Shown: positions 7,358-21,812, counted from the first letter of the stretch. The stretch: 35,000 nucleotides of DNA from Candidatus Methanomethylicota archaeon (GCA_020833005.1 JAJHRD010000013.1:1-35000); one strand, 5' to 3'. Numbers and translations are program-made. The notes: generated by a model not told the origin, from the sequence alone.

Positions 7358-8374
7358 TTATATTGCTAGTACTTCTTCTATCTCTTTCCCAAGTATTAGT
7401 TTTATTCCATACTTTTCTGCTAGTTCTTTCAATGTTTTTGAAGCTTCTTCTACAACCCTTGCAACTGATAGTACTACCATTTCTGGCTTTCTACCATACC
7501 TTTCTTCAACTATTTTAGTGCGTATTAGAAGTTTCTCGATCTCTCTCCTTGCTTCTTCAACACTTCTTATACTTACAGTTGCTTCCCCCACTATTAAGGG
7601 TTTTTCGCAGAATAGGTTTATCTCCACTGCCTCACCATTGTATACTAGGATTTTCCTTTCAACTTTTGCGTCAGGATAGCCCATTTCTTCAAGCATTAAT
7701 TGTAGGAAGGATGCTGCATGATCTTGGAATGCCACTCCTATGGATGCTTTAAGGTCTCTGAACCCTGAAATCATGTATTTCCTCATTCTATCATAATTTA
7801 TTCTGAGGAATTTCACTTCCTCCCAAAGTCTATTTTGACTTTCCCAAAGTTTATTTTGATTCTCCCACAATTTGTTTTGACTTTCCCTTAAAGTCTTAAC
7901 TTCTTCCCATAGCTTATTTTGTCCTTCTCTCAATGACTTTACCTCTTCCCATAGTTTGTTCTGGTTTTCCCACAACCTATTCTGTCCTTCTCTTAATGCT
8001 TTGACCTCTTCCCATAGTTTATTCTGTCCTTCTCTTAATGATTTCAATTCTTCCCAAAGTTTGTTTTGATTTTCCCATAACCTATTTTGCCCCTCCCTCA
8101 AAGCTTTGATTTCCTCCCATAACTTGTTTTGATTCTCCCATAATTTGTTCTGTCCTTCTCTTAATGATTTGATTTCCTCCCAAAGTCTATTCTGATTTTC
8201 CCAAAGTTTATTTTGGTTCTCCCAAAGTTTATTCTGCCCTCTCTCCAGTATGTCAAGTCTCTTAAGAATTTCGGATAACCCTATATAGCCTGCTACGATA
8301 TAACGAAATTCAATATCCCTTTCAAGTAATTCAATGAATTCCCTCTTAAGCTTTTCAGACATGCATCGACACAC
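7358..8374 (-). CDS. Heptad-repeat coiled-coil protein with a PD-(D/E)XK-like C-terminal domain
   Basis: A protein of 338 residues. A short N-terminal region is followed by 21 uninterrupted heptads (residues 47-193), 14 of the form QN[KR]LWE[NES] and 7 of the form [IVL]K[SATF]LR, with Leu and Ile/Val/Gln at the a/d positions: a long parallel or antiparallel coiled coil. The C-terminal domain (about 200-338) resembles archaeal DUF3782-type or restriction-endonuclease-like domains: AVEINLF then LIVGEATVSI, and a later strand EMVVLSVARVV. In an active nuclease one expects D-Xn-E-X-K; here the Lys is Thr (GEAT), so catalysis is doubtful. A TATA-like ATTTAAATAAG sits about 30 nt upstream on the minus strand; ATG at 8362 is an alternative start. 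The role is unknown. Confidence 0.8.
   Translation of the reverse strand: MCRCMSEKLKREFIELLERDIEFRYIVAGYIGLSEILKRLDILERGQNKLWENQNKLWENQNRLWEEIKSLREGQNKLWENQNKLWEEIKALREGQNRLWENQNKLWEELKSLREGQNKLWEEVKALREGQNRLWENQNKLWEEVKSLREGQNKLWEEVKTLRESQNKLWENQNKLWESQNRLWEEVKFLRINYDRMRKYMISGFRDLKASIGVAFQDHAASFLQLMLEEMGYPDAKVERKILVYNGEAVEINLFCEKPLIVGEATVSIRSVEEARREIEKLLIRTKIVEERYGRKPEMVVLSVARVVEEASKTLKELAEKYGIKLILGKEIEEVLAI
7796..8236 (-). repeat. 21-bp tandem repeats coding for coiled-coil heptads (21 units)
   Basis: Twenty-one in-frame 21-bp units encode the heptads of the coiled-coil protein. Units alternate in a higher order: one to three LWE heptads followed by one K-L-R heptad, giving 14, 21 or 28-residue super-units. 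Codons vary between copies, so the array is not a recent perfect duplication, but the near identity favours copy-number change by slippage or recombination. Confidence 0.9.
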
Positions 8375-9644: not shown

Positions 9645-10037
9645 GTGAGTTACGAAAGGTATAGGGATTGGTTTGAAGAAGCTATTGACGATTTTGAAGC
9701 AGCCACTGAATTATTTAAGGTTGGGAAGTGGAGTAAAGTTTGCTTTCTCTCCCATCAAACAGTGGAGAAGGCTTTAAAGTCTCTAATGATCAAAGAGCTC
9801 AACATATATAGGCATACACATAGCATCGCAGAACTTTTGAGGGAAATAGGCAATAGAATTGAATTCCCCCAAGAATTAAGGGATCAAGCAAGTAGACTAG
9901 ATAGGCATTACATACCAACAAGGTATCCCAATGCATGGCCAGCCCTCCCACCACATAAACATTATTCAAAGGAGGATGCTGAGGAAGCTTTAAACATTGC
10001 AAGGAGCGTGATAGATTTTGTCAAGAAAAGATTTTAA
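9645..10037 (+). CDS. HEPN-domain protein (likely toxin of a HEPN/MNT pair)
   Basis: An all-helical HEPN protein of 130 residues: SHQTVEKALKSLMI on the second helix, HTHSIAELL, and the signature LDRHYIPTRYPNAWP followed by YSKEDAEEALNIARSVIDFV. HEPN proteins are often RNases in toxin-antitoxin or defence settings, but this one shows no clear R-X4-6-H catalytic motif, so RNase activity is uncertain. The next gene, an MNT nucleotidyltransferase, overlaps it by 20 nt. This is the typical organisation in which the nucleotidyltransferase modifies or restrains the HEPN partner. The GTG start follows a GGTGGAG ribosome site. Confidence 0.85.
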   Translation: MSYERYRDWFEEAIDDFEAATELFKVGKWSKVCFLSHQTVEKALKSLMIKELNIYRHTHSIAELLREIGNRIEFPQELRDQASRLDRHYIPTRYPNAWPALPPHKHYSKEDAEEALNIARSVIDFVKKRF

Positions 10038-10368
10038 TGATATTCTGAAATGTGAAGGTGTAAGAGATCTTACTGAAGATTTGAAAGAATTAATTAATGA
10101 GCTTGTAAGGGAATTTAAACCATTGAAAATCATATTAACAGGATCCCTTGCCAGAGGGAGATTCGTGAGGGGGTTAAGTGATATAGACATACTAGTTATA
10201 GTAGATGAAGTAAAATCTAAGGATAGATTCATGCTTAAAACTATTAAAGATGTTGATGTAGAAATAACTGTTATCTCTAAAGATGAATTTGAAAAGGCAA
10301 TTAACATGGGAAGAGAATTCTACATTGAAGCAATAAAGTGGGGTATAATAGTGCATCAACAATGCTGA
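10018..10368 (+). CDS. MNT-type minimal nucleotidyltransferase (likely antitoxin)
   Basis: A protein of 116 residues with the nucleotidyltransferase fold: GSLARGRFVRGLSDIDILV carries the GSxxRG motif (Gly42-Ser43, Arg46) and the two metal-binding aspartates Asp55 and Asp57, and DVDVEITVIS supplies the third acidic position. The gene overlaps the end of the HEPN gene, so translation is coupled. The TTG at 10018 is the earliest start. In characterised HEPN/MNT systems the MNT protein adenylylates a Tyr of the HEPN toxin and so silences it; that chemistry is inferred here. There is no HTH domain, unlike the second nucleotidyltransferase in the window. Confidence 0.87.
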   Translation: MSRKDFNDILKCEGVRDLTEDLKELINELVREFKPLKIILTGSLARGRFVRGLSDIDILVIVDEVKSKDRFMLKTIKDVDVEITVISKDEFEKAINMGREFYIEAIKWGIIVHQQC

Positions 10369-12262: not shown

Positions 12263-13006
12263 TTGTGGATTCCAAGATGGCTTGGTGAAGTGTACACTAG
12301 ACTTTACTTAGAATTCGGCTTAGAGACGTTTACATTTAATGATGCAATGAAAATTCTTGGTAGGAGTGAAGGGTGGGTTAATGTTGCTTTCAGCAAACTA
12401 CATAAATTTAGGTTACTGTACATACATGAGAAATCTAAGACTAGGCTTTATAGGGTTGTTAAACCTGAAACATTTACATTGATACTGTCTGGGAAGATAA
12501 AGAATATAGATAAAGTAAAGCAAGAAAGGTATATACAATTGATATGCGATGCATCTTTAAATCTAATGAGAAACTATAATTTAACGTCGATATGCTTGTA
12601 TGGTTCCGTTGCACGTGGGACGGCGCGTCCAAATAGCGACATAGATTTACTGGTGATTTCAGATGATTTTAAGGGTACTCTAGCTTCCAGGATTGAACGA
12701 ATTCTAAACGATGTTGAAAGCAAAGTTAAAGATGAAATTGAACGTCTAAAGAGGTTTGGTGTGGATACTGAATTAAGCATATACCCATTAAGGAGAGAGG
12801 AGGTTTTACGCTTCCCACCAATACTATTGGATTTAACTGAAGATGGAATAATAATCTACGATTATGAACTCTTCCTAGAGAAGGTTCTGACAAAATTAAA
12901 GGCTAAATTGATCGAATTGAATGCGAAGAGGGTATTCATAGATAAGGATACATGGTATTGGGATCTAAAACCAGATTACAAGTTTGGAGAGGTAATTGAA
13001 TTTTGA
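12263..13006 (+). CDS. Winged-helix plus MNT nucleotidyltransferase (likely antitoxin/regulator)
   Basis: A two-domain protein of 247 residues. The first ~75 residues form a winged-helix-like DNA-binding domain (FTFNDAMKILGRSEGWVNVA is the likely helix-turn-helix, RLYRVVKPE the wing). It is followed by an MNT nucleotidyltransferase with LYGSVARGTARPNSDIDLLV (Gly114-Ser115, Arg118, Asp126, Asp128) and a third strand VDTELSIYPL with Glu in the acidic position. The downstream HEPN gene overlaps by 4 nt. The DNA-binding domain suggests autoregulation of the pair. The TTG start (12263) lies about 30 nt after a TATA-like ATTTATTTAG; no ATG in frame is nearby. This type of HTH-MNT/HEPN pair is common in hyperthermophilic archaea. 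Confidence 0.85.
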   Translation: MWIPRWLGEVYTRLYLEFGLETFTFNDAMKILGRSEGWVNVAFSKLHKFRLLYIHEKSKTRLYRVVKPETFTLILSGKIKNIDKVKQERYIQLICDASLNLMRNYNLTSICLYGSVARGTARPNSDIDLLVISDDFKGTLASRIERILNDVESKVKDEIERLKRFGVDTELSIYPLRREEVLRFPPILLDLTEDGIIIYDYELFLEKVLTKLKAKLIELNAKRVFIDKDTWYWDLKPDYKFGEVIEF

Positions 13007-13431
13007 AGTTGATGGATATCGCTAAATCATATCTTAAACAAGCCAATGCACGTTTAAAGGATGCTGAAGAAGCTTTGAGAGAAGGGTTAAACCCCTACGC
13101 ACTTAGATTATCACAAGAATGTGTGGAATTATCTCTAAAAGCAGCTTTAAAAATAGTGGCTGTAGAGTACCCAAAGAAACATGATGTTTCAGATGTTCTA
13201 ATTCAAGTTAGAAATAGATTTCCAGAATGGTTTCAGAGGGAAATAGACTTCATGGCAAACACGTCTAGAACACTTGCAAAGAAGAGAAGTATAAGCATGT
13301 ATGGTGATGAAACATTTGCACTTTCACCAGAAGAGTTGGTAAGTGGTGAAGAAGCAAGAATAGCTGTGGAGAATGCTAAGAAGACTTATAGTTTATGTAG
13401 AAAGCTACTTGATGAATTAAAATATGCGTAA
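13003..13431 (+). CDS. HEPN-domain protein (likely toxin partner of HTH-MNT)
   Basis: A helical protein of 142 residues: AKSYLKQANARLKDAEEAL, then the helix LSQECVELSLKAALKIV, KKHDVSDVL, and the conserved segment SRTLAKKRSISMYGDE, a hallmark of this archaeal HEPN branch. As in the first HEPN protein, the R-X4-6-H RNase motif is not evident. It overlaps the end of the HTH-nucleotidyltransferase gene by 4 nt, so the two proteins are made together. Possible starts are TTG 13003, TTG 13009 and ATG 13012; GGAGAGGT near 12986 favours the first. Toxicity is inferred from the family. Confidence 0.83.
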   Translation: MKLMDIAKSYLKQANARLKDAEEALREGLNPYALRLSQECVELSLKAALKIVAVEYPKKHDVSDVLIQVRNRFPEWFQREIDFMANTSRTLAKKRSISMYGDETFALSPEELVSGEEARIAVENAKKTYSLCRKLLDELKYA

Positions 13432-13559: not shown

Positions 13560-13573
13560 TTATATATTAAAAG
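13560..13573 (+). promoter_or_regulatory. TATA-like promoter of the MtrH-type gene
   Basis: TTATATATTAAAAG is about 40 nt upstream of the ATG at 13608, giving a leader of roughly 15-20 nt that contains AGGTG, a possible ribosome site 6 nt before the ATG. Confidence 0.55.
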
Positions 13574-13607
13574 GGTAAAGTCTTTGTAAGAAATCTAGGT
13601 GCCAACA

Positions 13608-14513
13608 ATGTTTAAATTCGGTAGAGAGCAAAAGATTTACGATATAGCTGGAGTAAAGATCGGGGGACAACCAGGTCAATTACCAACAGTAATGATTGGA
13701 TCAATATTCTACCATAAACATAGAATCGTAATAGATGAGAAGACCGGCCAATTTGATGAGAAGAAGGCTGAAGAACTACTAATGAAGGAGAAAGAGATAT
13801 CTGAGAAAACTGGGAATCCGAGGATAGTTGATGTATGTTGCAGTTGGCCTCAAGCTTTTGGAAAACTAATAGATTTCGTAGCTGGAAAAGTTGATGGACC
13901 ATTCTGCATAGATGGAGCAACAGCGGAAGTTAGAATTGCAGGGGCAAAATATGTTGGGGAAGTTGGGTTGTCAAATCGGGTAATATATAATTCAATCGTA
14001 CCACATACGCGTGAAGATGAAATTGTGGCAATTAGAGATGCTAAAATAAAATCTGCAATACTACTGACATTGAATACAAGAAACCCCACAATAGCTGGAA
14101 GATTACAGGTAATGGATGAACTGTTGGCAATAGCGCAAAAAGCGGGTATCGAAAATACATTGGTGGATGTATGCGTCCTAGACATACCGGATCCAGGACC
14201 AATTAGCAAAACAATATATGTGGTGAAGGAGAAGTATGGTTTACCTGCAGGGGCTGGGGTGCGTAATGCAGTTATAATGTGGAAAAAGAAGCGTGCATTA
14301 ACCCCTGAAAACTATATGCTTGCAGATGGGGTAGCTAATGCAATACCCATAGTCCTCGGAGCCAACTTCATACTCTATGGACCCATAGAACGCGCTTCTA
14401 CAGCATACTTCTCATGCGCATTGGCAGATGCATATGTAGCGTATAGTGTAAGACAGGAATATGGAATAAAACCGTTAACAAACAATCATCCATTATACAG
14501 AATATTTAGGTAA
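13608..14513 (+). CDS. MtrH-type methyl transferase (tetrahydromethanopterin methyltransferase subunit H family)
   Basis: A protein of 301 residues that follows MtrH from end to end: MFKFGREQKIYDIAGVKIGG at the N-terminus, TVMIGSIFYHKHRIV, IVDVCCSWPQAFGKLIDFV, PFCIDGATAEVRIAG, and KKRALTPENYMLADGVANAI near the end. In methanogens MtrH is the Mtr subunit that carries the methyl group between methyltetrahydromethanopterin and the corrinoid of MtrA. Here no other mtr subunit is near; instead a free corrinoid protein and an MttB-type methyltransferase follow. The likely role is methyl transfer from that corrinoid protein to tetrahydromethanopterin or tetrahydrofolate. I chose ATG 13608 over GTG 13599 because the family begins MFKF and AGGTG precedes it. 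Confidence 0.88.
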   Translation: MFKFGREQKIYDIAGVKIGGQPGQLPTVMIGSIFYHKHRIVIDEKTGQFDEKKAEELLMKEKEISEKTGNPRIVDVCCSWPQAFGKLIDFVAGKVDGPFCIDGATAEVRIAGAKYVGEVGLSNRVIYNSIVPHTREDEIVAIRDAKIKSAILLTLNTRNPTIAGRLQVMDELLAIAQKAGIENTLVDVCVLDIPDPGPISKTIYVVKEKYGLPAGAGVRNAVIMWKKKRALTPENYMLADGVANAIPIVLGANFILYGPIERASTAYFSCALADAYVAYSVRQEYGIKPLTNNHPLYRIFR

Positions 14514-14625
14514 CACCCAAAATATCACAATGAATACTTGAAGCAATGATATACCATCCCCACAGCTTACATATTCATCGCATTTTTCATTTTTAATTAA
14601 TATGTAAATTCCAGTGTAAAACCAA

Positions 14626-14638
14626 AAACTTTAAATGC
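14626..14638 (+). promoter_or_regulatory. TATA-like promoter of the corrinoid protein gene
   Basis: AAACTTTAAATGC lies about 33-35 nt before the ATG at 14667, in the 153-nt gap after the MtrH-type gene. The corrinoid and MttB-type genes may therefore be transcribed separately from mtrH. Confidence 0.5.
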
Positions 14639-14666
14639 AAAAACCTCACACTTACTTTAGGACACT

Positions 14667-15320
14667 ATGCATTCCGAAAGGGAGGAATTGTTAAGTAAAT
14701 TGAAGGAAGCCGCGATAAATGGAGATTCCGATCAAGTTGTTAAATTATCCAAAAGAGTTATTGAAGTTGGAATAGACCCTCTTGAAGCTGTTGAAAAAGC
14801 TTTAATAGCAGGAGTCATTGAACTTGGTGATAAATGGATAAATGGAGAAGCATTCATAGTGGACCTAATAGCCGCAGCTGAAGCAATGAAAGCTGGATTA
14901 TCAATTTTGAAGGAAGAGATTACTAAGAGAGGGGGGAGCATCAAATATCGTGGAAGAATAGTCATTGGGACTGTTGAAGGAGATATACATGACATTGGGA
15001 AAAGCATAGTTGCATCATTGCTCGAAGCCGCCGGCTTCGAAGTAATAGACCTAGGAGTAGATGTATCCGCACAGAAATTCATAGAAGCCATAAAACAATA
15101 CAACCCAGACGTGGTAGGCATGAGCGCACTAATGACCACCACCATGCTTAAACAAAGGGAGATTATAGAAGCAATCAAACAAGCAAACCTAAGGGATAAA
15201 GTGAAGATAATAGTGGGCGGAGCCCCAACAACTGAGGAATGGGCTAAGAGTATAGGTGCAGATGGATGGGCACCAGACGCCACAGGCGCAGTGGAATTGG
15301 TAAAAAGATTGCTGAAATAA
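14667..15320 (+). CDS. Corrinoid (methyl-carrier) protein, MttC/MtbC-like
   Basis: A protein of 217 residues with the standard two domains: an N-terminal helical cap (about 1-90: WINGEAFIVDLIAAAEAMKA) and a Rossmann-like B12 domain. The cobalt-ligating His is in GDIHDIGKSIV (Asp106-x-His108-Asp-x-Gly111), followed by VVGMSALMTTTM and IIVGGAPTTEEWAKSIGADG. Such proteins accept a methyl group on Co(I) from a substrate-specific methyltransferase and pass it to a second one. The MttB-type gene follows after 3-12 nt and the MtrH-type gene precedes it, giving both partners. No reductive activase (RamA-like) gene is in the window. Which amine is used depends on the MttB-type partner. Confidence 0.92.
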   Translation: MHSEREELLSKLKEAAINGDSDQVVKLSKRVIEVGIDPLEAVEKALIAGVIELGDKWINGEAFIVDLIAAAEAMKAGLSILKEEITKRGGSIKYRGRIVIGTVEGDIHDIGKSIVASLLEAAGFEVIDLGVDVSAQKFIEAIKQYNPDVVGMSALMTTTMLKQREIIEAIKQANLRDKVKIIVGGAPTTEEWAKSIGADGWAPDATGAVELVKRLLK

Positions 15321-15332
15321 GAGGTGAGTCAA

Positions 15333-16784
15333 TTGACTAAACCTAAAATAAAAGTTTTAGACGATAATGAAATTCTGGAGATCCACTGGAGATCACTAAG
15401 CATATTGAGCAAAGTTGGTGTTAAGGTAGATCATAAGGGGGCTCTTAAATTACTGCAAAATATAGGAGCTGAAGTTGATTTAAACAGTGGAATAGCAAAA
15501 ATACCAGAATACATTGTGAGAGAAGCTTTGAAGAAGACGCCAAGCATAATTAAATTGTATTATCGTGACGGCAAAAGATTCATTGAACTATACGGAGACA
15601 ACACATACTTCGATGTTGGCTCATCCGCATACTACTACATGGACTACAAAAACAATGAAATAAGGAGACCAACATCAAAGGATTTAGCGGAAGTAGCCAA
15701 AGTTACAGATTTCCTCCCAAACACCCACATAATGTCAACGGCACTAGTGCCTTCAGACATCCCGGAAATAATTGCTGATAGATGGAGAATGTATGTTGTA
15801 GCGAAAAACTGCACCAAACCAATAGATACTGGAGCATTCACCATGGAAGGAGTTCCAGACGCAATTAAAATAATGGCTTCAATAATTGGAGAGGAAAATG
15901 TTAGTATGAAGCCATTCATGATATTTGCAGCATGCCCATCACCACCACTCAAATGGAGTGAACTGACAACACAAAACCTAATGGACTGCGCCAAATATGG
16001 AATACCAGCACACATAATACCAATGCCCCAAACAGGAGGGACATCCCCAGCAACCATCGCAGGCTCAATAGTTCAATCCAATGCAGAATTCCTAGCTGGA
16101 CTCGTAATAGCACAATTCACAAAGCCAAGCGCACCAATAGTCTACAGCGGTTCACCAACAGTATTCGACCAGAGATTTGCAACCTCATGCACTGGATACA
16201 TAGAAGTTGGATTAATATCAGCAGCATTCTCACAACTTGCAAAATTCTACAATATCCCAAGCGCATCATACACCATGGTAAGCGATTCAAAAACCATTGA
16301 TTCACAATCAGCCATAGAATCATCCTTAGGTGCATTAATATCAGTCCTATCTGGAATAAACATGGCAATAGGCTCCGGAATGCTACTAGAAGAGAACTGC
16401 ATAAGCCTAATAAAACTTGTTATAGATGATGATATAGCAGGCTCAGCATTAAGATTTGCAAGAGGGATACAGGTAGATGTGGATACATTGGCTGAGGAGG
16501 TTATAAGGGAAGCTGGACCTGGAGGATTATTCCTAAAACACAAACATACACGTGAATGGTGGAGGAAAGAACACTACATACCAAAACTATTCGATAAGAG
16601 GACATATGACATGTGGAAAAAGCTTGGATCAAAAGATCTAAACACAATTGCAAAGGAAAACGTTGAGAAAATCCTTAAAGAACATGTCGTAGAACCATTA
16701 CCAAAAGATGTGGAGAAAATGCTCGATGAAACCATGAAAAACATAGCACACAAATATGGAATAGAGAAATTGCCAGAAATATAA
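15333..16784 (+). CDS. MttB-family methyltransferase without pyrrolysine
   Basis: A trimethylamine methyltransferase-superfamily protein of about 483 residues. Visible family elements are IHWRSLSILSKVGVKV with IGAEVDLNSGIAKIP, DVGSSAYYYMDYKNNEIRRP, MPQTGGTSPATIAGSI, VSDSKTIDSQSAIESSLGAL and GSGMLLEENC. It is one uninterrupted frame with no in-frame TAG, so it lacks the pyrrolysine of true MttB. It belongs with the glycine betaine, proline betaine, carnitine or unknown quaternary-amine demethylases (MtgB, MtpB, MtxB). It should methylate the corrinoid protein encoded just upstream. TTG 15333 is preferred because GAGGTG at 15321-15326 has the right spacing; GTG 15324 is the alternative. The substrate is not known. 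Confidence 0.88.
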   Translation: MTKPKIKVLDDNEILEIHWRSLSILSKVGVKVDHKGALKLLQNIGAEVDLNSGIAKIPEYIVREALKKTPSIIKLYYRDGKRFIELYGDNTYFDVGSSAYYYMDYKNNEIRRPTSKDLAEVAKVTDFLPNTHIMSTALVPSDIPEIIADRWRMYVVAKNCTKPIDTGAFTMEGVPDAIKIMASIIGEENVSMKPFMIFAACPSPPLKWSELTTQNLMDCAKYGIPAHIIPMPQTGGTSPATIAGSIVQSNAEFLAGLVIAQFTKPSAPIVYSGSPTVFDQRFATSCTGYIEVGLISAAFSQLAKFYNIPSASYTMVSDSKTIDSQSAIESSLGALISVLSGINMAIGSGMLLEENCISLIKLVIDDDIAGSALRFARGIQVDVDTLAEEVIREAGPGGLFLKHKHTREWWRKEHYIPKLFDKRTYDMWKKLGSKDLNTIAKENVEKILKEHVVEPLPKDVEKMLDETMKNIAHKYGIEKLPEI

Positions 16785-19986: not shown

Positions 19987-19997
19987 ACTCATAATTG

Positions 19998-21812
19998 ATG
20001 ATTGAAGTAATTGTTGTAGAGGATTACTGGGAGATGAGTAGGAAGGCTGCACAAATAATTGCGAGACATGTATGGGATAACCCTGAAAGTGTAATTGGAC
20101 TTGCCACTGGCAGTACACCCATTGGAATGTATGATGAATTGATAAAGATGTTTAAACATGGATTAATAGACTTCTCAAAAACTGTAACTTTCAATTTGGA
20201 TGAATATTGGCCTATGAAGAAGAGTAGTCCATACAGCTACCACTACTATATGAGACAGTACTTCTTCAACCATGTAAACATTAAACCTGAAAATATACAT
20301 ATACCGGATGGTGAAGTTAAGTGGGAGGATATTAACGAGCATTGCTCATGGTATGAGGATGAAATTAAGAGTCATGGCGGAATAGATATACAAGTACTTG
20401 GAATAGGTGGAGGATACTATGATGCTGATGGAAGATATATTGGCGGCCACATAGGGTTCAATGAGCCTGGATCACCATTCGATAGTAGAACGAGACTTGT
20501 AAAACTTTCAGAGCAAACCAGGAGCGATAATTCAAGATTCTTCATGAGAATAGAGGAAGTCCCATATTACGCTATAACCATGGGGATAGCAACAATAATG
20601 GAAGCAAGGGAAATAATACTCTTAGCTTCAGGGGAGCATAAAGCCAACAGCATTAGGGAAGCAGTTGAAGGGCCATTAACAAATATGGTTCCAGCATCAA
20701 TACTACAAAAACACAGAAATGTTAAGTTCATAATAGATAAGGGGGCTGCCTCAAGGCTTACCCAAACCATAATGCCATGGCTCCATGGAAATGTAAATTG
20801 GAGTTTGGAGGTTAGGAAGGCTTATAATGGTTTTGAAAACCTCATAACTAGAGCATTAACTTTAACATCAATGAAGATGGGGAAGGAGATAATGAAGATA
20901 GATTTAAACGACCTAGCAACTTTAAAACTTGAGGAACTAGCCAAATTCGATTTGAACGAATTGAAGAGAAGGGTCTTCGAAGATTTGAAGAGTAAAGTTA
21001 TGGATTACGATAAAACTCCAAGGGGGAGGAGGATACTAATATTCTCACCACACCCAGATGATGACGTAATATGCGTAGGGGCAACGATGAAAATATTAAA
21101 TGACACTGGAAACGACGTTAGAATTGCATACATGGTTTCAGGGAATATAGCCGTAAGGGATGACGATATAATAGAAATTGCAAATGAAATTTCCTACAAT
21201 AAAGAGGATTTAATTGAAAACCTAAAGCTTGAGAGAATCCCAATAAAGACATTAATGGATTTAAAAGCCAAAGTCAGAATGATGGAAGCAATAAATGCCG
21301 CTAAAACATTAGGTATAGATGAAGGGAAAATATACTTCCTCAGATTACCATTCTACGAAACTGGCTTCATAATAAAGAATCCAATAACAGAAATGGATGT
21401 AAATGCAACAATCAAAGTTATTGAAGAAGTAAAACCAGAAATAATCATAATGCCAGGGGAAGTGGATGACCCCCATGGAACCCATGGGAAATGCATAGAA
21501 ATAATAAATAAATCCCTTGACAAATTGAACTTGAGAAATGAAATTGATATGTGGCTGTATAAGGGTGGATGGGAAGAGTACATGATATATGAAGCCAACA
21601 TAATAGTTCCATTTAATAGGGAGTTAATGAATTTGAAGATTGAAGCCATAAAGAAGCATAAATCCCAATTAACACCACTATTCCAAGGCTTAGATCCAAG
21701 ACCATTCTGGAAGAGGGCTTTAGATAGAAACAAGTTTAACGGAGATATTCTTAGGAAGATTGGATTAATAGACGCAGAATACGCAGAACTACTCAAACGC
21801 CAAAAACTGTGA
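19998..21812 (+). CDS. NagB (glucosamine-6-phosphate deaminase) fused to a PIG-L deacetylase
   Basis: One frame of about 604 residues with two enzymes. Residues ~1-275 are NagB: LATGSTPIGMYDEL, FNLDEYW, LGIGG, then GHIGFNEPGSPFDSRTR with the active-site His and Glu, and GEHKAN. A helical linker follows (about 275-340). Residues ~345-604 are a PIG-L/LmbE deacetylase: IFSPHPDDDVICVGA, the metal site, and PGEVDDPHGTHGKC with the C-terminal His pair. The natural sequence is deacetylation of N-acetylglucosamine (phosphate), then deamination to fructose-6-phosphate, so one polypeptide could do both. The frame is intact across the junction. ATG 19998 follows an A+T-rich promoter. I recall the same fusion in Bacteroidota, so transfer is possible. 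Confidence 0.87.
   Translation: MIEVIVVEDYWEMSRKAAQIIARHVWDNPESVIGLATGSTPIGMYDELIKMFKHGLIDFSKTVTFNLDEYWPMKKSSPYSYHYYMRQYFFNHVNIKPENIHIPDGEVKWEDINEHCSWYEDEIKSHGGIDIQVLGIGGGYYDADGRYIGGHIGFNEPGSPFDSRTRLVKLSEQTRSDNSRFFMRIEEVPYYAITMGIATIMEAREIILLASGEHKANSIREAVEGPLTNMVPASILQKHRNVKFIIDKGAASRLTQTIMPWLHGNVNWSLEVRKAYNGFENLITRALTLTSMKMGKEIMKIDLNDLATLKLEELAKFDLNELKRRVFEDLKSKVMDYDKTPRGRRILIFSPHPDDDVICVGATMKILNDTGNDVRIAYMVSGNIAVRDDDIIEIANEISYNKEDLIENLKLERIPIKTLMDLKAKVRMMEAINAAKTLGIDEGKIYFLRLPFYETGFIIKNPITEMDVNATIKVIEEVKPEIIIMPGEVDDPHGTHGKCIEIINKSLDKLNLRNEIDMWLYKGGWEEYMIYEANIIVPFNRELMNLKIEAIKKHKSQLTPLFQGLDPRPFWKRALDRNKFNGDILRKIGLIDAEYAELLKRQKL

Follow-up and report, generated by a model that had tools for sequence, protein, structure and literature searches.

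Three adjacent genes in a 35,000-nucleotide stretch of archaeal DNA (the window) probably encode a methyl-transfer cassette leading from an MttB-type methyltransferase through a corrinoid protein and an MtrH-type protein to tetrahydromethanopterin (H4MPT), with the activase supplied from outside, the corrinoid/MttB pair as core and MtrH as a swappable part. As proposed, MttB would demethylate a small methylated compound and place the methyl group on Co(I) of the corrinoid protein, and the MtrH-type protein would carry it from methyl-Co(III) to H4MPT. The resulting methyl-H4MPT could be oxidised via Mer or combined with CO by CODH/ACS. The RACo-type activase of the CODH/ACS cluster, encoded away from the locus, would reactivate oxidised corrinoid. 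The proposal draws on observed genes, families and residues, on genome content, and on gene replacement and co-occurrence; the direction of the reaction, the acceptor and the activase partner are what we infer. The features of the locus are as follows.

12263..13431, + strand: nucleotidyltransferase (NTase) and HEPN gene pair, outside the pathway (PF01909, PF05168)
13560..13569, + strand: putative TATA-like box TTATATATTA upstream of mtrH (sequence reading)
13608..14513, + strand: mtrH-type gene, MtgA/MtoA-like methylcorrinoid:pterin methyltransferase (PF02007)
14630..14637, + strand: putative TATA-like box TTTAAATG, located some 30 bp ahead of the mttC start codon, ATG (sequence reading)
14667..15320, + strand: corrinoid-protein gene, MttC/MtgC-like, 217 aa, GDIHDIG (PF02310, PF02607, TIGR02370)
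15324..16784, + strand: non-pyrrolysine MttB-superfamily methyltransferase gene, 486 aa, uncharacterised clade (PF06253)

An earlier note on this DNA had described three adjacent genes for MtrH, a corrinoid protein and MttB, and all three are present as + strand open reading frames with strong family matches. For mtrH, comparison with the N-terminus of the family favours the ATG at 13608 (MFKFGREQ) over the mechanical start, a GTG at 13599. Only 3 bp separate mttC from mttB, and 153 bp separate mtrH from mttC. This 153-bp gap and the separate TATA-like boxes argue against a single mtrH-mttC-mttB operon, and the box ahead of mttC suggests that mttC-mttB may form a transcription unit of its own.

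The arrangement was also found in G002, a more distant congener, where NTase-HEPN-mtrH-mttC occur in the window's order with 83% DNA identity and mttB follows mttC on another short contig. An assembly artefact in place of a true cassette was ruled out, as congeners share both flanks and the gene order. In G002, mttB breaks at one point into two reading frames (L248, G002:C97, 1571-3021), by either a gene frameshift or an assembly error. A second HEPN/NTase-type pair lies at 9645-10368 of the window, less than 4 kb from the pair at 12263-13431; both pairs are absent from the syntenic stretch of a sister genome, G001. Elsewhere in the window, the protein encoded at 7358-8374 (- strand) has many QNKLWE(N/E)-type heptad repeats before a conserved-looking C-terminal part and is probably a long coiled coil, and at 19995-21812 a domain of the glucosamine-6-phosphate isomerase type is fused to a PIG-L deacetylase domain, which suggests amino-sugar use.

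The MtrH-type protein matched PF02007 (284.6 bits, 1e-84) and exceeded the cut-off of NCBIfam NF002142 (304 bits). It scored under the cut-offs of two NCBIfam equivalog models, those for mtrH and MtgA, reaching 267.9 bits on the latter (cut-off 550). The Asp and Asn altered in the MtgA variant structures 6sjo/6sjp are kept, and on the PF02007 match and these active-site residues the protein is assigned as a putative MtrH-type methylcorrinoid:pterin methyltransferase. It is the only MtrH in the window's genome (G000). A biochemical parallel to the predicted free-MtrH step comes from M. shengliensis, whose MtoA takes methyl from MtoC and passes it to H4F, used in place of H4MPT, but not to CoM (PMC8630106).

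The corrinoid protein matched PF02310 (4.5e-33), PF02607 (1.5e-17) and TIGR02370 (217.2 bits, over cut-off). The D-x-H-D-I-G of the B12 carrier read earlier is present, as GDIHDIG. The protein also carries the His/Asp/Thr ligand triad of MttC (7xcn; triad from PMC9842639). With B12 cap and core domains, DxHxxG and the triad Thr, it belongs to the methylotrophic corrinoid proteins; its 227.6 bits on the MtgC model lie below the NCBIfam cut-off of 310.

Membership of MttB in its superfamily (COG5598/PF06253) is clear from PF06253 (289.6 bits against a curated cut-off of 25; residues 6-470; 3.7e-86), and its fold from matches to 7xcl and 2qne. On TIGR02369, the model for pyrrolysine MttB, it reached 418 bits, short of the cut-off of 525. 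Aligned with M. barkeri MttB (7xcl), it has Val in place of Pyl334 and Ile in place of Tyr364, and no in-frame stop was found in its reading frame, in agreement with the earlier description of an MttB without in-frame TAG. Of the set of TAG/Pyl334, Tyr364 and Gly110 that marks the pyrrolysine enzyme for trimethylamine, the first two are therefore lacking.

In a 99-row tree, built by a quick method with M. barkeri MttB and D. hafniense MtgB as its two characterised references, the window protein fell in a 69-row group of archaeal and bacterial proteins (SH-aLRT 100). The comparison with characterised enzymes that the earlier note had called for was made with these two references, and neither of them falls in the group. 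Judged from its sequences, the clade is large, uncharacterised relative to MttB and MtgB, and common to archaea and several bacterial phyla.

The earlier note had favoured a quaternary amine such as a betaine as methyl source, and a glycine-betaine system orthologous to MtgB/MtgC/MtgA would have the same three families, as well as the sub-threshold scores on the MtgC (227.6 bits) and MtgA (267.9 bits) models. Betaine demethylases are also known among non-pyrrolysine members of the MttB superfamily (PMC6855144; works cited in PMC9723716). Nevertheless, those scores are below the cut-offs of 310 and 550, and MtgB lies outside the clade. The glycine-betaine contacts of MtgB predicted by docking (Y94, N199, R309 and H345; PMC6855144) are S, C, A and G in the window protein (0/4 kept) and S, C, mostly H, and G in the 69-row clade. 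Orthology to the Mtg system is highly improbable on these grounds, and the betaine claim was not borne out by either the clade or the contacts. MtgB-like betaine binding by the window MttB is not supported by the predicted contacts; a betaine could still be its substrate, probably one not bound as glycine betaine is.

The genome contains two MttB-type genes, that of the window and a second on a short contig (L001, G000:C133, 1001-2440) from which a corrinoid gene is absent. No corrinoid gene was found within 4 kb of its G001 copy. The C133 protein retains the equivalents of N199 and R309 and groups loosely with MtgB, which makes it the better candidate for a betaine enzyme in this genome and counts further against Mtg orthology of the cassette. 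A '1 TGA' flag on the C133 gene and its G001 copy was rejected as recoding, the TGA being a stop ahead of the ATG. In the three genomes of family f43, an amino-acid permease gene lies immediately 3' of mttB (L059 10030, L060 4352, L061 9065), a possible hint of an amino-acid-like substrate. Such a substrate was set aside as a reading from neighbours, the permease in f43 and the class-III aminotransferases in L061 and L071 being absent at the window locus.

The window comes from Ca. Culexarchaeum or a very close relative, a non-methanogenic archaeon of hot springs. McrA, present in 27 of the 41 genomes searched (the window's genome and relatives), was not found in this 2.23-Mb, 95% complete genome. 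The search for other mtr subunits proposed earlier covered MtrA, which was likewise not found, so that the Mtr membrane complex is missing as judged by this subunit. Among the window open reading frames scanned there was no MtbA/MtaA-type URO-D methyltransferase. Mer is encoded once (412 bits, over cut-off) and CdhC once. Contig C10 carries a CODH/ACS cluster of CdhA-type, CdhC, CdhD and CdhE genes together with a RACo-type activase, a CooC-like ATPase and Mer. Because of Mer and this cluster, the genome encodes paths from methyl-H4MPT to oxidation and to acetyl-CoA; none leads to methane.

The absence of McrA and MtrA and the presence of Mer and CODH/ACS point to a pterin rather than CoM as acceptor, as had been proposed. 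The class does include McrA-bearing relatives, and the cassette might be regarded as a remnant of methanogenesis with CoM as acceptor. This is scarcely credible for a genome in which neither McrA nor MtrA was found, and published Culexarchaeia have 0 of 38 methanogenesis markers (PMC9723716).

The cassette had also been called self-contained, a description that did not hold. It includes no RACo/RamA activase: the earlier suggestion to look for ramA led to a single activase in the genome, of the RACo type and located in the C10 CODH cluster. Moreover, MtrH is replaced in the sister species.

In this sister genome (G001, same genus), the flanks of the locus are syntenic with the window at 93-99% protein identity. 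DNA similarity breaks off where the 11180-11779 gene ends and is regained at the start of mttC. Between these points G001 has, in place of the window's NTase-HEPN-mtrH block, genes for an SDH-type protease and a RACo-type activase on the opposite strand, and the corrinoid protein (94% identity) and MttB (97%) are retained. The 289-aa gene adjoining the activase was considered as a substitute acceptor and rejected, as it encodes the SDH-type serine protease. In G001, listed as 99% complete, MtrH, CdhC and Mer were all looked for and none was found. Loss of mtrH in G001 would be the simpler reading, because the more distant G002 has the window's order and also CdhC. As G001 keeps the pair, the pair is useful without MtrH. 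The two near-identical species represent a natural experiment in which MtrH, CODH/ACS and Mer are kept in one and all missing in the other, and the acceptor question is directly testable with two small protein sets, one from each.

Of 42 Thermoproteota genomes that carry MttB, 18 had MtrH as well as CdhC and 18 had neither, with MtrH only in five and CdhC only in one. The association was significant (Fisher p=1.5e-6), although the counts are not fully independent, a few families being heavily sampled; with one count per family and state, p=0.004. This co-variation supports MtrH feeding the H4MPT/CODH route. CdhC may, however, track MtrH only as another marker of the Wood-Ljungdahl pathway. In G332, mtrH and mer lie next to each other in divergent orientation.

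The window MttB is sister to the f43 MttB, its closest relative outside the genus. The window MtrH is not closest to the MtrH of f43, where mtrH lies elsewhere in the genome and not beside mttB. Its nearest relative outside the genus (73%) is from a Bathyarchaeota locus, L097, and adjoins an MttB of the clade. The disagreement between the MtrH and MttB trees therefore indicates a pairing assembled from parts of different history. MtrH looks like an exchangeable acceptor module, and the corrinoid/MttB pair like a stable core.

Neighbours within 3 kb were counted at those clade MttB loci that had 2.5 kb or more of flank on each side (27 archaeal, 36 bacterial). A same-strand corrinoid gene was present at 19/27 archaeal and 20/36 bacterial loci. 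MtrH was near at 1/27 archaeal loci, to which the window, L097 and L102 are added with shorter flanks. Core MetE proteins, which retain the HxC...E...C zinc motif, were encoded at six of the 27 archaeal loci, and URO-D proteins at four. At L072, metE and mttC overlap and are followed by mttB. Bacterial loci had a PF02574 homocysteine methyltransferase in 6/36 cases and a MetH-activation-type protein in 6/36. MtrH, core methionine synthase, URO-D proteins and homocysteine methyltransferase are all possible acceptors beside MttBs of this clade. Given the MetE and URO-D neighbours and a G001 pair without MtrH, H4MPT need not be the sole or original acceptor.

Methionine synthesis is a live alternative as the fate of the methyl group. 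The pair might mainly feed methionine, with MttB loading MttC, an unlinked core MetE-type synthase methylating homocysteine, and MtrH adding an H4MPT link in Wood-Ljungdahl species. The MetE, PF02574 and MetH-activation-type neighbours counted above, including the L072 overlap, are consistent with this, as is a pair kept at 94-97% identity in G001, where MtrH, CdhC and Mer were not found; core MetE is encoded in both the window's genome and G001. Nevertheless, core MetE lies on contig C9 of the window's genome, whereas MtrH adjoins the pair. The CoFeSP of the CODH cluster is itself a proposed donor for MesB/MesC-type synthases (PMC7857596), and the MetE-like proteins score under NCBIfam cut-offs. 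This account is considered unlikely for the window.

Flow in the opposite direction was also considered: MtrH would load MttC from methyl-H4MPT, MttC would feed core MetE as a split, MetH-like synthase, and MttB would be an extra source. MtrH reactions are reversible in principle, as in Mtr, and core MetE is present. Nevertheless, mttC is coupled to mttB (3-bp gap) rather than to mtrH, and G001 keeps MttC without MtrH, which makes reverse flow very unlikely. Transfer from MttB towards H4MPT is the preferred direction.

For the clade as a whole, a more general proposal is possible but doubtful: MttB, the corrinoid protein and core MetE or PF02574 might be a non-folate methyl-donor module for homocysteine, a modular methionine synthase supplied by some methylated compound, with MtrH a later plug-in diverting methyl to H4MPT in Wood-Ljungdahl species. 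If so, Culexarchaeum YNP-LCB-024-027 (G001) would make methionine in this way, without MtrH, CODH/ACS or Mer. The question addressed here is which substrate and which acceptor serve the non-pyrrolysine MttB proteins that are widespread in non-methanogenic archaea, and the exchangeable acceptor and the possible role of the clade in methionine synthesis are worth following. Caution is warranted in annotation: 'betaine' is not readable from MttB membership, nor 'methylotrophy' from MtrH alone.

Several known systems resemble the cassette. That of D. hafniense (MtgB-MtgC-MtgA, glycine betaine to THF) has the same three-part logic and families, with a free MtrH-type second methyltransferase. It differs in that the window MttB is of another clade and is without the predicted betaine contacts, the organism is an H4MPT organism, and the scores are under the Mtg equivalog cut-offs. 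M. shengliensis MtoABCD, for methoxylated aromatics, likewise uses an MtrH-type protein, MtoA, from corrinoid to pterin (H4F tested, H4MPT inferred) and has a corrinoid-activating enzyme, but its substrate enzyme MtoB is not MttB-type (PMC8630106). Clusters of MtrH, corrinoid, URO-D (~425 aa; several side by side in L255) and RACo genes in other Thermoproteota (L255 8300-17555; L253 6657-11366) resemble Mto-type O-demethylase sets. In Ruegeria pomeroyi, one corrinoid protein, MtgC, is proposed to serve both betaine demethylation and methionine synthesis (PMC12478193); that system, unlike the window's, is bacterial and for glycine betaine. Non-pyrrolysine MttB/MtbC near MtrH in Asgard archaea, Brockarchaeia and Thermoproteota (PMC11291895, PMC8065059) probably belong to the window's MttB clade. 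Substrate and acceptor were left unassigned there; the 69-row clade includes L099 and L105, which are loci of Jordarchaeia and Freyarchaeota, and core MetE adjoins both.

The closest known cassettes are those of Ca. Culexarchaeia, of the same genus and gene families. The main text of Kohtz et al. (2022; PMC9723716) describes loci in which genes for MttB, a corrinoid protein and an activase accompany mtrH, the absence of MCR, pyl genes and Mtr subunits other than MtrH, and a quaternary amine or unknown methylated substrate as the proposed methyl source. The cassette itself is thus not new, having been published for the genus. That main text is silent on the absence of MtrH from MAG YNP-LCB-024-027, on its co-loss with CODH/ACS and Mer, and on the residue and neighbour evidence from the clade. 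To this the present analysis adds a last step that is probably exchangeable, and a substrate that probably binds in a manner other than that of glycine betaine.
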